Positions 46,475 to 52,337 of a stretch of 55,770 nt of DNA are shown here, in pieces. The notes beneath the pieces were generated by a model. That model worked only from the letters and a program-made list of their open reading frames with translations. It was not told the DNA's origin and searched no databases. The position numbers were made by a program, and so were the translations under genes. The stretch covers positions 1 through 55,770 of the forward strand of contig CANREP010000012.1 in assembly GCA_947629685.1 (NCBI GenBank), written 5' to 3'. Position 1 is the first letter of the stretch; each line of letters starts with the position of its first letter. This DNA comes from an uncultured Phascolarctobacterium sp. Lineage in GTDB: Bacteria > Bacillota > Negativicutes > Acidaminococcales > Acidaminococcaceae.

Positions 46475-46621
46475 AATAAATCCTCCCTGAATGCAATTAA
46501 AGATTTTTCATAATTATAAACTTTTTATTCCAATTAAGCAATATCATCAGCCTCCTTCTTACATAAATATCACAATTGTAGCCAAAATGTAAGCATCTGT
46601 TCAAACATCTGCCGGATATGG

Positions 46622-46627
46622 TATAAT
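46622..46627 (+). promoter_or_regulatory. Extended -10 promoter of the ABC importer operon
   Basis: TGG-TATAAT extended -10 (hexamer 46622-46627) with a poor -35 (TTCAAA at 16 bp). Transcription would start near 46634, giving a leader of about 137 bases before the first gene. Confidence 0.6.
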
Positions 46628-46633
46628 GATAAA

Positions 46634-46754
46634 AACTGCAAGAGCAGCTTGCCACCGCAGAAGCGGTATCTAAAAACATTTGTATGACGTATTTATGCCA
46701 GGCTATGAAGGCCAGTCATCCCTGCACGGGATGCCGGTTTTTCATGGCTTTTTT
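46634..46754 (+). ncRNA. Structured leader RNA with terminator (candidate riboswitch/attenuator)
   Basis: Two adjacent hairpins: GCAAG-AGCAG-CTTGC (46638-46652) and ACCGC-AGAA-GCGGT (46654-46667), one base apart. After a linker comes a long terminator: GCTATGAA (46702-46709) pairs with TTCATGGC (46741-46748) around an inner stem CATCCC-TGCAC-GGGATG, followed by six T's (46749-46754). The SD of the first gene is 10 bases further on. The order promoter, folded RNA, terminator, SD is that of a transcription-control riboswitch. I could not match it to a known class. Confidence 0.55.
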
Positions 46755-46770
46755 CATGTCAGGAGGAGCA

Positions 46771-47715
46771 ATGAAAAAATTTCTTTTGCGGCAGTGCCTT
46801 GCCGTACTCCCCATTTTGCTTGGCGTTACCCTTATTACTTTCTTCCTGTTGCAGCTTGCCGCGGAAGATGCTGCAGATATGCTGTACCGTCAGTACGGAG
46901 CCGTCTCCGAAGCAGTCAAAGCTCAGACGCGTGCCCAGCTGGGACTTGACCGTCCGCTGTATGTGCAGTATTTTTCCTGGCTGCTGCATTTACTGAGCGG
47001 CAATGCCGGCTATTCTTATATTTCCGGGCTTCCGGTAAGCAGCATTTTTTGGGAACGTCTCCCAACCACCCTGTTTTTGGCAGCAGCATCGCTGCTTGCT
47101 GCTCTCTGCATATCTTTGCCGGCAGGATTTTACTGTGCCTTACGGCATAATAAAAAGGCTGACTACCTGCTGCAGCTGTTTTCTTTTGGCGGCAGCTCCA
47201 TGCCAGGCTTTTTACTGGCGCTGCTGCTTATCTACTTTTTTTCTGTACGGCTGCAGGCTGCCGCCGTTCTCAGTTCTTCCGGCAGCTTGACCGCTTTTGT
47301 CCTGCCGGTCATTACTCTGACCGTGCCTATAGCAGCTAAGTACACCCGCTATATCCGCGGAGAAGTACTGCGGGAATTACAGCAGCCTTATGTTTATGGC
47401 GCATTGCTGCGCGGTATACCAAAAAATATCATCCTCAAACAGTATGTACTGCACGCCATCAGCCTGAATATGCTGACGGTAACTGCGATGTCGGCCGGCT
47501 CCTTGTTGGGCGGCACAGCTATTATCGAAAGCATCTTTATGCTGGATGGCATCGGCAGGCTGACTGTCGAAGCCATCGTCATGAAAGACTATCCAGTACT
47601 GCAGGCCTGCGTCATCTGGAGTACGCTTATCTTTATTCTGGTAAATTTAGCGGCAGAACTGCTATGCAGCCGGCTCGATCCCAGAAATAGTATTTTCTCA
47701 CAGGAGCGCTTATGA
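46771..47715 (+). CDS. ABC importer permease, NikB/DppB type
   Basis: 314 residues from the ATG at 46771 (SD AGGAGG, 4 bases); the frame is open further upstream, but that runs through the leader terminator. Typical DppB/NikB start 'MKKFLLRQCLAVLPILLGVTLITFFLLQL', 'RAQLGLDRPLYVQYFSWL', EAA-loop 'YVYGALLRGIPKNIILKQYVLHAISLNML' and 'GGTAIIESIFMLDGIGRLTVEAI'. First of five cotranscribed genes of a peptide/nickel-type importer. Confidence 0.92.
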   Translation: MKKFLLRQCLAVLPILLGVTLITFFLLQLAAEDAADMLYRQYGAVSEAVKAQTRAQLGLDRPLYVQYFSWLLHLLSGNAGYSYISGLPVSSIFWERLPTTLFLAAASLLAALCISLPAGFYCALRHNKKADYLLQLFSFGGSSMPGFLLALLLIYFFSVRLQAAAVLSSSGSLTAFVLPVITLTVPIAAKYTRYIRGEVLRELQQPYVYGALLRGIPKNIILKQYVLHAISLNMLTVTAMSAGSLLGGTAIIESIFMLDGIGRLTVEAIVMKDYPVLQACVIWSTLIFILVNLAAELLCSRLDPRNSIFSQERL

Positions 47716-48551
47716 TTTCTCAAAAAACAACCTTTCTGCGCGCTATCTTGCCCGTACTTTTGCTGCTGGCGCTCAGTGCTGCAGGCACCTGGGCCGCGCC
47801 TCACGATCCTTTTCACCAGCAGCTGCAGCAAGCTTTATTACCACCGGGTGATGAGTATATTTGCGGTACCGACAGATACGGACGCTGCGTTTTCTGCCGC
47901 GTCCTGGCCGGTGCTCCCCTTTCCGTCCTGACCGCCCTTTCGCTTACGATAGCAGCATCGCTCATCGGTACGACGGCAGGCATATACGGCGGGTATTATC
48001 ACGGCAGTGTTGCCGATAAATTTTTATTACATCTCACAAACATCGTGCTGGCATTTCCTGGTATGATGCTGGCGCTGGCCATCGCAGGCATAGCTGGCGG
48101 CGGTATGCTTACTGCTGCTGCCGCCCTGCTCTGTTCCTCCTGGGCACCTTACGCACGCCTGGCCCGCCGCCAGGTCATCACAATCAGGCACGCCCCCTAT
48201 ATAGAAGCGGCCAGGCTCTGCGGCTGCACCGACACGGAAATACTTTTCCGTTATCTTCTGCCCATTGCCGTCAAGCCCGTTCTCATCATGGCTGCTGCCA
48301 ATATCGGCACTATGCTGCTTGCTCTGGCCGGGCTTTCTTTCCTCGGTTTGGGCGCCCAGCCTCCCGCAGCGGAATGGGGGTCAATGATCAGCAGCAGCCG
48401 CAGCCTGCTCCAGGTAGCGCCCTGGACAGTATTCACCCCCGGCTGCGCCCTGTTTATCGCCGTCTGCTGCTTTAATTTCTCCGGCAATGCCCTGCATGAT
48501 TTACTGGAGCCGGAGCATAATAATTTTCTTAAGGAGCGCACTTATGATTAA
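47712..48551 (+). CDS. ABC importer permease, NikC/DppC type
   Basis: 279 residues, overlapping the first permease by 4 bp. 'HDPFHQQLQQALLPPGDEYICGTDRYGRCVFCRVLAGAPLS' is the DppC/NikC periplasmic segment (usually GTD..GRD..SR); the EAA loop 'EAARLCGCTDTEILFRYLLPIAVKPVLI' and 'GLSFLGLGAQPPAAEWGSMI' follow. Several extra Cys residues in 'GRCVFCR' are unusual for the family. Confidence 0.92.
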   Translation: MISQKTTFLRAILPVLLLLALSAAGTWAAPHDPFHQQLQQALLPPGDEYICGTDRYGRCVFCRVLAGAPLSVLTALSLTIAASLIGTTAGIYGGYYHGSVADKFLLHLTNIVLAFPGMMLALAIAGIAGGGMLTAAAALLCSSWAPYARLARRQVITIRHAPYIEAARLCGCTDTEILFRYLLPIAVKPVLIMAAANIGTMLLALAGLSFLGLGAQPPAAEWGSMISSSRSLLQVAPWTVFTPGCALFIAVCCFNFSGNALHDLLEPEHNNFLKERTYD

Positions 48552-50064
48552 AATACTTTATCCACTCCTTGCCGCCCTCCTGCTGCTCAGCGGCTGCGGC
48601 GGCAAGCAGACTGACGACAAAGCCTGCTTCCGTTACGGAACTACTGCTTACGGCACTTCCCTGGACAATGCCGGTATTGACCCGCACCAAAGTTATCAGG
48701 GCTGGTCAGCTATCCGCTATGGCGTAGGCGAAACCCTGTTCCGCCTTAACGAGCAGTCCCAGCCTCAGCCCTGGCTGGCGCAAAAATATGAATATATAGA
48801 CGACAGGACCTGTAAAATAACTTTACGCGATAACGTTACTTTCAGCAGCGGACGTAAAATGACTGCAGCCGCAGCAAAAGAATGTCTAGAACAACTTATT
48901 GCGGTGCATAGCAGGGCCGCAGCCGATTTAAAAATACGTTCTATCGCTGCTGCCGGCCAGGAACTCACCATCCAGACAACAGAGCCGCTGCCAGCGCTCA
49001 TCAATTATCTTTGCGACCCTTACGCCTGCATCATGGATATGCAGAGCAAAACTGCAAACAGCAACCTACTTGCCGGTACAGGTCCTTTTATTGCCCAGCG
49101 TGTCACTGCGCAGGAAATTTACCTGCAGCGCAATCCTCATTATTGGGCAGGCCCTGTCCAGACAGAAGCCGTCCTCGTCAAAGGTATCCCTGACGGCGAT
49201 ACCCTTGCCATGGCGCTGCAAAGCGGAGAACTGGACGCTGCCCAGGGATTGCCTTACGCCAGTCTGAGACTTTTCCGCAACAATCCGGCCTTTAAGCTCA
49301 GCAGTACAGAAACATCCCGCGTTTTTCAGGCAGCCTTGAACTTTTCCTCTCCCGTACTGCAAGATCCCCGCATCCGTGCAGTAATAGCCCTTGCCGTAGA
49401 TAAGCAGGCCTTTGCCGCAACTTTGCTGGAAGGTAACGGAACGCCTGCCGCTGGTCCATTCCCGGGCAATCTGCCTTACGGCACATCCTGGCGATCTTCC
49501 TATGATACGGATACTGCCCGTAACTTACTTGCGGCGGCTGGCTGGCAGGATACTGACGGCGACGGTTATGTAGATAAAGGCGGCAAGCCGCTGACTCTGC
49601 GCTGGCTGACTTATCCCGCCCGCCAGGAACTGCCGCTGCTGGCAGAAGCGGCCCACGATTATTTAAAAAATATCGGCATCAAAGCCGAAGTAAATATAAC
49701 CGACAACTGTGCCGTTTTTTTACAAAACGGGCAATGGGATATTTATGCCAAATCCTTTGTCAGCGCACCTACCGGCGACCCGGAGTATTATTTCACAACC
49801 CATATACCGTCGTCTTCTGCCTATAACGTAGGACATTACCATAATCCGCAGGCCGAACAGCTTCTGCAGAACCTGCGCGGCACAGCTGATACCAGTCAAC
49901 GCGCGCAAATAGCGCGCCAGCTGTCGCAACTTATAACCGATGATAATGCTTATATCTATTACGCCCATTTAAAGATGACCCTGGTTATGAAAAACAATGT
50001 GCGCGGCTTTAGCGCCCATCCTTCAGATTATTACGAAATAACTGCCGCTTTGGCCAAGGAATGA
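48544..50064 (+). CDS. ABC importer substrate-binding lipoprotein, NikA/OppA type (SBP family 5)
   Basis: 506 residues from the ATG at 48544 (SD AAGGAG, 7 bases; overlaps the upstream gene by 8 bp). Lipobox 'LLLLSGCGGK'. 'IDPHQSYQGWSAIRYGVGETLFRLNEQSQPQPWLAQKYEY' and 'DNVTFSSGRKMTAAAAKECLEQL' are SBP family 5 features closest to nickel/metallophore receptors such as NikA/CntA; peptide binding is the alternative. It sits third in the operon rather than first, another nik-like feature. Periplasmic receptor. Confidence 0.85.
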   Translation: MIKILYPLLAALLLLSGCGGKQTDDKACFRYGTTAYGTSLDNAGIDPHQSYQGWSAIRYGVGETLFRLNEQSQPQPWLAQKYEYIDDRTCKITLRDNVTFSSGRKMTAAAAKECLEQLIAVHSRAAADLKIRSIAAAGQELTIQTTEPLPALINYLCDPYACIMDMQSKTANSNLLAGTGPFIAQRVTAQEIYLQRNPHYWAGPVQTEAVLVKGIPDGDTLAMALQSGELDAAQGLPYASLRLFRNNPAFKLSSTETSRVFQAALNFSSPVLQDPRIRAVIALAVDKQAFAATLLEGNGTPAAGPFPGNLPYGTSWRSSYDTDTARNLLAAAGWQDTDGDGYVDKGGKPLTLRWLTYPARQELPLLAEAAHDYLKNIGIKAEVNITDNCAVFLQNGQWDIYAKSFVSAPTGDPEYYFTTHIPSSSAYNVGHYHNPQAEQLLQNLRGTADTSQRAQIARQLSQLITDDNAYIYYAHLKMTLVMKNNVRGFSAHPSDYYEITAALAKE

Positions 50065-50066
50065 AT

Positions 50067-50840
50067 ATGTCAGCTTTCAAACTCACCCTCAATAATGTAT
50101 CTGTCGCTTACGGAAAATGCCCGATATTACATGATATCAGCTTTTCTCTCACTTCCGGGCAGGTTATCGGCCTGCTGGGCAACAGCGGCAGCGGCAAAAC
50201 TACCCTGCTAAATACGCTTGCCGGCCTATTGCCGCAAGCAGCGGCAGCCAGCGGCAGTATTTACTGGAACAGCTGCCAGCTGCTGCATAATCCTCAGCAG
50301 GCAAAATTACGCGGCAAAAAGATTGCCATGCTGCCCCAACATACCGGGTCATCTCTTTTTCCCTTACAGACAATCCGAGAGCATTTTTATTTAACGCTGC
50401 AGGCTTTCGGCTCCCATGAAAAAGAACTGGTAGTAAAAAAAGCTTCCGAACTACTTGCTGCCCTGCATTTTGACCAACCTGCAGCTATCTTAGACAGCTA
50501 TCCTTTCCAGCTTTCCGGCGGGATGCAGCAGCGTGTCTGCCTGGCTCTCTGCCTGCTGCTGGAGCCGCAGCTGCTGCTGGCAGACGAACCTACCTCCGGT
50601 TTAGACGTCATGGCACAAAACGAACTACTGCAGCAGCTGCAGGCACTACGCAAATGCAGTGACAGCGCTATGCTTATTACTTCTCATAATCCAGGCTTCC
50701 TCTGCCGTATAGCCGACCATATCATCGTCATGCATCAGGGACGCATCATCGAAACTGCCCCACCTGACCAGTTATACCAGCATCCTAAGACTGACTATAC
50801 CCGTCAGCTGCTGGCAGCAGTACCACGCAGTTCTGTTTAA
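50067..50840 (+). CDS. ABC importer ATPase, NikD/OppD type
   Basis: 257 residues from the ATG at 50067 (AAGGA, 6 bases upstream); the ATG at 50061 abuts the SD. Walker A GNSGSGKTT, signature 'LSGGMQQRVCLALCL', Walker B 'LLLADEPTSGLDVMAQNELL', switch 'MLITSHNPGFLCRIAD'. The short C-terminus without the OppD Cys cluster fits NikD-like proteins better than OppD. 'LPQHTGSSLFPLQTI' is the Q-loop. Confidence 0.9.
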   Translation: MSAFKLTLNNVSVAYGKCPILHDISFSLTSGQVIGLLGNSGSGKTTLLNTLAGLLPQAAAASGSIYWNSCQLLHNPQQAKLRGKKIAMLPQHTGSSLFPLQTIREHFYLTLQAFGSHEKELVVKKASELLAALHFDQPAAILDSYPFQLSGGMQQRVCLALCLLLEPQLLLADEPTSGLDVMAQNELLQQLQALRKCSDSAMLITSHNPGFLCRIADHIIVMHQGRIIETAPPDQLYQHPKTDYTRQLLAAVPRSSV

Positions 50841-50849
50841 GGAGAAACC

Positions 50850-51611
50850 ATGTTTTTACAAGTCAGCCATCTGAATAAATCTTATCCCGATACGGTCGGC
50901 ACCTTGACTGCCGTTAACGATGTCAGTTTCACCCTTGCTGTAGGCGAAATCGTCGGCCTGCTGGGCAGCAGCGGCAGCGGCAAAACCACCCTGGGACGGC
51001 TGCTGACAGGCCTTACCGCCAGCGACAGCGGCAGTATCTCGCTGGATGGTCAAATCATCAGCTTTGACAGTCAGAAAGCACGGCGTAGTTATTACCGTCA
51101 GGTACAATACATCTTTCAGGAGCCTGCCGCCTCTTTCCATCCGATGCATACTATCGGCAAGGCCATCATGGAGCCTTTGCTGCACAACGGTTATAGCCAC
51201 GCTCAAGCCCAAAAACGAGTGAATGAACTGCTGCAGCAGATTGGTCTGCCGGCAGAATATGCCGACAGATATATTTATCAGATCAGCGGCGGTGAAGCTC
51301 AGCGGATAGCCATTGCCAGAGCCATCAGTATCCGCCCGCGTCTTTTAATCTGCGATGAGATAACAAGCTCACTGGATACGCTGACGCAGCAGAAAATCAT
51401 CAGTTTATTACTGTCTCTCCACAAGCAATACGGCACTGCGCTGCTTTTTATTACCCATGATATTTTTCTGGCTGCTGCGTTCTGCCGCCGGCTGCTGATT
51501 CTGTCTAAAGGCCGGCTGGTAGAAGCAGGTAATACCCAGACCATTTTGCACGCGCCGCAGCATCCGGCTACACAGCAGCTGCTGGAAGCAGCGCGTAATC
51601 TTACTATCTGA
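50850..51611 (+). CDS. ABC importer ATPase, NikE/OppF type
   Basis: 253 residues; SD AAGGAG, 9 bp after the previous gene. Walker A GSSGSGKTT, Q-loop 'YIFQEPAASFHPMHTIGKAIMEPL', signature 'ISGGEAQRIAIARAISI', Walker B 'LLICDEITSSLDTLTQQKI', switch 'LLFITHDIFLAAAFCRR'. The Walker B 'DEITSSLD' replaces the common DEPTSALD, which is tolerated in NikE-like proteins. Last gene of the importer operon; no terminator follows directly. Confidence 0.9.
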   Translation: MFLQVSHLNKSYPDTVGTLTAVNDVSFTLAVGEIVGLLGSSGSGKTTLGRLLTGLTASDSGSISLDGQIISFDSQKARRSYYRQVQYIFQEPAASFHPMHTIGKAIMEPLLHNGYSHAQAQKRVNELLQQIGLPAEYADRYIYQISGGEAQRIAIARAISIRPRLLICDEITSSLDTLTQQKIISLLLSLHKQYGTALLFITHDIFLAAAFCRRLLILSKGRLVEAGNTQTILHAPQHPATQQLLEAARNLTI

Positions 51612-51626
51612 AACAGGGCCTTATAT

Positions 51627-51860
51627 GTGACCTTCATTTACCTGCAAACTGTCACGTCAATACGCATACTAAATAATATCAGCTGCTGGCATAAACGAAC
51701 AGCAGATTTTGCTAAACTGCGTCTGCGTGAACTGCGCAGTCCTGAAGCGTAGCTTGGGCGGCAGGAAATCTGCCGTCAGCTGCCTGCTATTTATGACAGC
51801 AAAGATGAATTTTCTATTTCCATTCTCACCTTCTTCTGCCTGAAAGCCTGCAAAGGTTGA
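51627..51860 (+). pseudogene. Possible decayed gene with an in-frame TAG
   Basis: In the same frame as, and just after, the NikE-like gene, 41 codons from a GTG (51627) reach TAG (51750-51752), then 35 further sense codons reach TGA (51858). The two halves join into a protein-like string ('KRTADFAKLRLRELRSPEA' then 'LGRQEICRQLPAIYDSKDEF'). Changing TAG to Trp would give one frame. I do not recognise the family. The remainder of this 311-bp gap is the promoter of the next gene. Confidence 0.25.
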
Positions 51861-51869
51861 CGGCTTTTC

Positions 51870-51898
51870 TTGACCAGTCTCGCTGCCGCACTTATAAT
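51870..51898 (+). promoter_or_regulatory. Promoter of the DUF3842 gene
   Basis: -35 TTGACC (51870-51875), 17-bp spacer, -10 TATAAT (51893-51898). Start near 51905, about 19 bases before the ATG. Confidence 0.75.
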
Positions 51899-51923
51899 GA
51901 AAGTATCAGCGAGGTGAAAATTT

Positions 51924-52337
51924 ATGCTTATCCTGGTTTTAGACGGCCAGGGCGGCGGTATCGGCCGTACCCTGGTAGAAATACTGGTCAAGGCCTATCC
52001 GCAGCATGAGATAGCGGCTGTCGGCACTAATTCTGCTGCTACGGCCAATATGCTCAAGGGAGGGCCTGCTTTTGCCGCTACAGGCGAAAATGCTGCTATC
52101 TTTAACTGTTCCCGAGCAGATATCATCATCGGGCCTACCGGCATCGTCATGGCCAACGCCATGCATGGGGAGATTAGTCCGCAGATTGCGGCAGCCGTTA
52201 CTTCCAGCCGGGCAGAAATCATCCTTATCCCCATGAATCATTGCCGCGCCCATATCGCAGGCGTAGAAGATAAAAAGGTTTCCGCCTATCTGCAAGAAGC
52301 ACTGCAGCTGCTGAACGAAATGTTACAGACAAAATAA
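51924..52337 (+). CDS. DUF3842 family protein
   Basis: 137 residues. A Rossmann-like N-terminus 'LILVLDGQGGGIGRTLVEILV', then 'AVGTNSAATANMLKGG', 'ADIIIGPTGIVMANAMHGEI' and 'IILIPMNHCRAHIAGVEDK' match the DUF3842 pattern. The GQGGGIG loop suggests nucleotide binding, and 'MNHCRAHI' offers Cys/His ligands, but no function is established. SD GAGGTG is 7 bases upstream. It follows the nickel/peptide-type ABC operon in the same direction with its own promoter, so a shared role in metal handling is possible but unproven. Confidence 0.85.
   Translation: MLILVLDGQGGGIGRTLVEILVKAYPQHEIAAVGTNSAATANMLKGGPAFAATGENAAIFNCSRADIIIGPTGIVMANAMHGEISPQIAAAVTSSRAEIILIPMNHCRAHIAGVEDKKVSAYLQEALQLLNEMLQTK

Follow-up and report, generated by a model that had tools for sequence, protein, structure and literature searches.

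We propose that the leader preceding the nik operon in the window (the whole analysed stretch of 55,770 nucleotides, contig C12 in the 1.78 Mb genome of an uncultured Phascolarctobacterium sp.) belongs to an undescribed family of attenuation leaders that serves nickel supply and is read by a nickel-responsive trans-acting factor, a reading to which we assign a probability of roughly 0.6. By computation the family has covarying small hairpins and a covarying conserved box, an alternative hairpin whose overlap with the terminator excludes the latter, no counterpart in Rfam, and a nickel/cobalt gene context in two bacterial classes. Terminators paired with a hairpin that excludes them are a known kind of element; what appears to be new is the family itself, together with its loop signature and nickel regulon.

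The nik operon and its leader

The operon runs in the order nikB, nikC, substrate-binding protein, nikD, nikE (Table 1). The binding protein matches Opp5A_nikA (E = 1e-104, under the family cut-off) and its nearest solved relatives are the nickel-binding protein 3t66 (E = 5e-62), SaNikA 4ofj (E = 8e-50) and also E. coli NikA. The genome has a second, paralogous nik operon with a cobalamin riboswitch upstream (L208:2414-2542, contig C14); because of this riboswitch we regard that operon as probably a cobalt system, and the operon of the window as probably a nickel system. The cobalamin riboswitch resembles the present element in controlling related transporters, including this paralogous operon, but it is a large aptamer for which Rfam has a separate model, and it is absent from the window leader. 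The gap between nikE and the DUF3842 gene (51620-51900) holds many short inverted repeats (CTGC/GCAG-like) without an Rfam match.

Table 1. Features of the leader and of the genes that follow it in the window.
Feature	Position	Strand	Basis or remark
Predicted promoter	46600-46627	+	-35-like TTCAAA (46600-46605), 16 nt, TG-extended TATAAT (46622-46627); 10 of 12 consensus matches
Hairpin H1 (P1-type), CUGC[AAGA]GCAG	46636-46647	+	pairing and covariation
Hairpin H2, ACCGC[AGAA]GCGGU	46654-46667	+	pairing and covariation
Variable linker	46668-46700	+	sequence and length unconserved
Conserved box / alternative hairpin P2, GGCU[AUGAA]GGCC	46701-46713	+	overlaps 5' arm of terminator and excludes it
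Intrinsic terminator	46701-46754	+	GGCUAUGAA (46701-46709) with UUCAUGGCU (46741-46749); stem 46701-46749 with inner stem CAUCCC/GGGAUG; six U's at 46749-46754
Shine-Dalgarno-like GGAGGAG	46762-46768	+	sequence
nikB-like permease, predicted first regulated gene	46771-47715	+	ATG at 46771; NCBIfam Opp2B / NikB, PF00528
nikC-like permease	47712-48551	+	family match
Nickel-type substrate-binding lipoprotein	48487-50064	+	ORF as listed; real start probably internal
nikD- and nikE-like ATPases	50061-51611 (50061-50840, 50850-51611)	+	family match
DUF3842 gene	51924-52337	+	PF12953, E = 1e-45; own promoter possible

Reading the sequence from 46600 to 46780 directly, we find all the parts named in the preliminary description: a TG-extended -10 box, two 5' hairpins, a terminator and a Shine-Dalgarno sequence. 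The promoter would place the transcript start at about 46634 and H1 consequently at the extreme 5' end of the RNA, with the tandem hairpins spanning 46636-46667; TATAAT-like boxes are seen at a similar distance 5' of H1 in L003, L062 and L076-L078. A short ORF (M-I-K-T-A-R-...) begins at 46626 and overlaps the -10 box. The fold of 46622-46771 is moderately better than that of shuffled sequences (z -1.92). Since such a single-sequence fold is only mildly unusual, comparison with relatives is required, and the real support for the structure is comparative.

Covariation of the small hairpins

Leaders of homologous genes in Acidaminococcaceae show the same order of promoter, H1, H2, variable linker and terminator; the nearest named relative (L032, an uncultured Phascolarctobacterium) has a NikB that is 73% identical. 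Across 20 leaders H1 is paired in 95.8% of cells. All six pairs show changes on both sides (42 cells in total), and the covariation score is 0.924 against 0.340 for shuffled alignments, a value that none of 500 shuffles reaches. For H2 the figures are 88.9% paired and 27 cells changed on both sides, again reached by 0 of 500 shuffles. The compensatory changes that the preliminary description had looked to for support of its two small hairpins are thus seen in both. Its register for the first hairpin, GCAAG/CTTGC (46638-46642 with 46648-46652), did not survive: this pairing is missing from the sister species (L003) and the covariation favours the register in Table 1.

These palindromes might also be taken for DNA operators of a repressor such as NikR, whose regulon likewise comprises nickel uptake genes, and H1 at the transcript start does occupy a typical operator place. 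NikR, however, is a DNA-binding repressor, the stems seen here vary freely in sequence with pairing kept, conservation is seen in the loops, and the terminator that the box overlaps lies well downstream; we consider the probability of this explanation practically negligible.

Conserved box and terminator

Conservation also extends to the 5' arm of the terminator (RGCYAUGAAGGCY), of which the first 13 bases can fold on themselves as hairpin P2, with four pairs and the loop AUGAA (box consensus NNCY-AUGAA-GGNN). This conservation exceeds what a terminator needs. Over 31 distinct boxes P2 is paired in 88.7% of cells, 16 cells are changed on both sides and 0 of 500 shuffles compare; coupled changes include A-U in place of G-C at pair 2, and G-C or U-A in place of A-U at pair 1. 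The terminator arms covary as well, with 97.5% of cells paired and two-sided changes in 13. Overall, H1, H2, P2 and the terminator each exceed all 500 shuffles in both paired cells and covariation score, shuffles which leave the relatedness among the leaders in place.

Bases 46701-46709 are common to P2 and the terminator, which makes the two mutually exclusive. The box forms the 5' arm of the terminator in all leaders, and one or more upstream hairpins are present in most. A terminator and a mutually exclusive hairpin, both conserved, define a transcription attenuator, and the attenuator layout suggested earlier is thus supported; the terminator then described is borne out too, but that its 5' arm GGCUAUGAAGGCC is able to form a competing hairpin by itself had been overlooked.

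The computed energies are highly unequal: -24.8 kcal/mol for the terminator segment against -3.6 kcal/mol for the P2 box alone, and enforcing P2 in the whole window leader costs 7.7 kcal/mol. Because P2 is much weaker than the terminator, the default state would be off unless a factor stabilises P2. For L195 and L197, on the other hand, the calculation gives almost no cost of P2, because the 3' arm is able to pair elsewhere.

The modest z-score alone would suit a plain terminator with decorative hairpins, that is, partial constitutive termination without any regulation. Given that AUGAAGG is conserved beyond the needs of a terminator, that P2 covaries, that control matches are nearly absent and that the association with genes is strong (see below), we regard this as highly improbable.

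Distribution of the family

A plain MAFFT alignment (A1) misaligned the hairpins, and N-padded hand alignments (A2, A5) were used instead; several of the alignments are hand-made and the genomes covered are a sample. A covariance model built from seven hand-aligned leaders recovered more members in several genera of Acidaminococcaceae, where the leaders precede nik operons, stand-alone nickel-type binding proteins and SAM-dependent methyltransferases. Conservation with covariation upstream of homologous operons, proposed earlier as a check, is therefore found. A pattern of box plus terminator yielded 35 matches against 2 in a backward control (380 Negativicutes genomes), and a stricter pattern 24 against 0 (398 genomes of the phylum), every match of the latter lying outside Negativicutes. 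The family is widespread, and in many Negativicutes and Clostridia it apparently controls nickel-uptake genes. We judged matches L085, L086, L091, L100-L102, L181 and L182 and the opposite-strand matches L079/L080:1418 to be due to chance, as is a 25-nt direct-repeat match at L055.

The upstream hairpins have a characteristic loop repertoire. In many of the matched leaders they repeat the loop of P2, as in ACACC[AUGAA]GGUGU, CAGCACC[AUGAA]GGUGCUG and GUAUC[AUGAA]GGUAC. Of 50 non-redundant leaders, 8 have an upstream hairpin with an AUGAA loop (0.07 in shuffles), 18 one with an NGAA loop (0.34) and 11 one with an ANGA loop (0.5); GNRA and UUCG, which are common loops in general, are seen once and not at all, respectively. 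The H1 and H2 loops of the window clade (AAGA, AGAA) are unlike the AUGAA loops that P1 has in Clostridia. Because the clearest set of Clostridial P1 hairpins was chosen for pairing, its statistics are biased towards the structure. A clear P1 was not found in L084, L111, L184 and L194, and P2 has only two to three pairs in L160 and L175-L177. Hairpin spacing ranges from about 6 nt (L201/L202) to about 60 nt (Clostridia). From H2 to P2 the linker measures 23-42 nt in the Acidaminococcaceae relatives; in L094 (G080:C37) it has grown from 23 nt to about 95 nt by an internal tandem duplication, with TCATAATAATAAA repeated.

Gene context

The great majority of genes downstream of or beside the element are connected with nickel/cobalt: CbiM (five from the phylum search and one from genome G021), ECF S-components, NikB, nickel-binding proteins, CobN, a FecCD-type permease, FmdE and CooT, and further a TM1266-like protein and [FeFe] hydrogenase. 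MinD-family ATPases behind the element might be CooC (NCBIfam names the MinD family only). An obvious nickel gene was not found near one locus only (L198), and L096/L105, which precede lactate-dehydrogenase- and SDR-like genes, are exceptions by gene type. The metal context supposed at the outset is thereby supported for the uptake genes and made more precise, namely nickel/cobalt.

In several genomes a DUF3842-FmdE-CooT cluster lies immediately 5' of the element and cbiM or nikB. DUF3842 recurs beside or behind the element in both Negativicutes and Clostridia (in the window and at L111, L114, L120, L172-L174 and L212-L215), which suggests a role connected with nickel. A structure prediction made for DUF3842 without alignment gave no usable model (pLDDT 44), and its best PDB sequence matches are at chance level. 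The CooT family PF10133 was once labelled as predicted RNA-binding. Each CooT dimer binds a single nickel by way of Cys2 (PMC6006190), and this cysteine is conserved in the CooT-like neighbours of the element; FmdE genes are reported mostly to adjoin metal transporters (PMC2954224).

Several neighbourhoods have peculiarities of their own. L213:1260-2084, L212:7663-8499 and L214:683-1486 encode fusions of CooT and DUF4198 with a GHHHHH stretch, and these fusions adjoin DUF3842 (and FmdE in L212 and L213) directly 5' of the element and cbiM/nikB. L104, L106 and L107 share an unusual ECF-type uptake cluster (a protein combining an extracytoplasmic part with an S-component-like C-terminus, a beta-propeller protein, EcfA/EcfT, TonB/ExbB and a TonB receptor), of which the L107 copy carries the element. 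Two distant genomes (L108:318-716, L193) have behind the element a small membrane-like protein that starts with MACFLV and has no match in Pfam. Moco riboswitches occur a few kb from element-bearing operons (two in tandem at L216:9189-9607, and L213:9822-9941).

Comparison with known systems and proposed mechanism

Rfam 15 (including NiCo, cobalamin, Moco and ykkC) gives no match at gathering threshold for the leader of the window, nor for 16 more leader loci, and a permissive search returned chance-level matches only (Bp1_684, at half its cut-off and on the opposite strand, and mir-135). The covariance search thus agrees with the earlier impression that the leader does not fit the NiCo, cobalamin, Mn, c-di-GMP, fluoride or ykkC consensus. 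A full-text search of the literature outside subscription papers returned no description of it either. The NiCo riboswitch (czcD), a four-stem junction RNA found mainly before efflux genes, is likewise a leader RNA over Ni/Co-related genes; it differs in that our element stands before uptake genes and has no Rfam match.

A metal riboswitch, in which the tandem hairpins bind Ni2+, Co2+ or a metal complex directly and binding favours the terminator, would agree with the nickel/cobalt genes and with a first hairpin located directly at the transcript start. It would also have a precedent in layout: guanidine-II (mini-ykkC) consists of two small loop-docking hairpins in tandem, with conserved loops and a variable linker before the expression platform. 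The paired ACGR loops of guanidine-II, however, are absent here (of 50 leaders, two such tetraloops occur in none and one in a single leader), its genes are other ones and Rfam reports no match. Moreover, hairpin spacing varies tenfold or so, the linker is unconserved and similar loops recur as isolated hairpins. Switching off with metal would in addition require P2 to win by default, which is at odds with a P2 far weaker than the terminator when it has no partner. We therefore consider a riboswitch unlikely.

A protein-read alternative is offered by ANTAR response regulators, where the reader would be the regulator of a HisKA_2 and REC-ANTAR pair with a diverged loop specificity. Their targets (eut, nasF and amiE leaders) carry two small hairpins. 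The second one overlaps the terminator (PMC3369931), more exactly its 5' arm, and protein bound to this hairpin prevents termination; the logic is the same as that of tandem hairpins whose last member overlaps the terminator. The genome of the window has one ANTAR protein, encoded beside a sensor kinase gene (L065, C22:28484-31645, a HisKA_2-like kinase and ANTAR regulator pair beside groES/groEL). The element-bearing Acidaminococcaceae have ANTAR proteins, as do 13 of 14 genomes in another set of element-bearing Negativicutes; all element-bearing Negativicutes genomes tested have the gene, except G058 (87% complete), where it was not found. Yet ANTAR is common, too, among members of the family in which no element was detected (46 of 59 genomes carry it). 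Hairpins with an A1/G4 hexaloop and a stem of at least 4 bp are not enriched (12 of 50 leaders against 9.9 in shuffles), the loops seen instead being NGAA, AUGAA and ANGA, with AUGAA in P2. The linker is longer and more variable than the 5-12 nt of eut linkers, where adding 20 nt abolishes EutV antitermination, and the regulon is one of nickel. As the hexaloops are unenriched and the linker rule is broken, the element is ANTAR-like in logic without qualifying as an ANTAR target, and ANTAR as its reader seems quite improbable.

What speaks for antitermination by a bound protein rather than for a riboswitch is the combination of repeated hairpins with related loops, their variable spacing and the weakness of P2. 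A nickel-responsive RNA-binding protein is accordingly the best-supported reading, in which we infer a protein as reader, nickel as signal and expression at low metal. The nascent RNA would form one or more P1-type hairpins with NGAA, AUGAA or ANGA loops (here H1 and H2), followed by P2, the last hairpin, whose 5' half and loop double as terminator arm. With no factor bound, the stronger terminator would win and the operon would be off. The factor would most likely be a protein that binds RNA at the repeated hairpins and whose activity depends on nickel (or Ni/Co) status; it would hold P2 when the metal is scarce, and RNA polymerase would then read into the uptake genes. CooT, FmdE and DUF3842 are candidate factors by gene neighbourhood only.

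Conclusions

In its widest form, the proposal is that Bacillota share a widespread antitermination system for nickel limitation, in which a previously unrecognised nickel-sensing protein (with the three candidates above) reads the NGAA/AUGAA hairpins and switches on nickel-uptake and nickel-sparing genes; we advance this tentatively, at slightly less than even odds. One RNA element before CbiM, NikBCADE, TonB/ECF uptake systems, FmdE and [FeFe] hydrogenase would provide a regulon that has been missing. It would also give an annotation handle on DUF3842, the MACFLV protein, the methyltransferases, FmdE and the CooT-DUF4198 fusion. Since [NiFe] hydrogenases and CO dehydrogenases need nickel, the way in which these anaerobes sense it matters, and it becomes a directly testable question.
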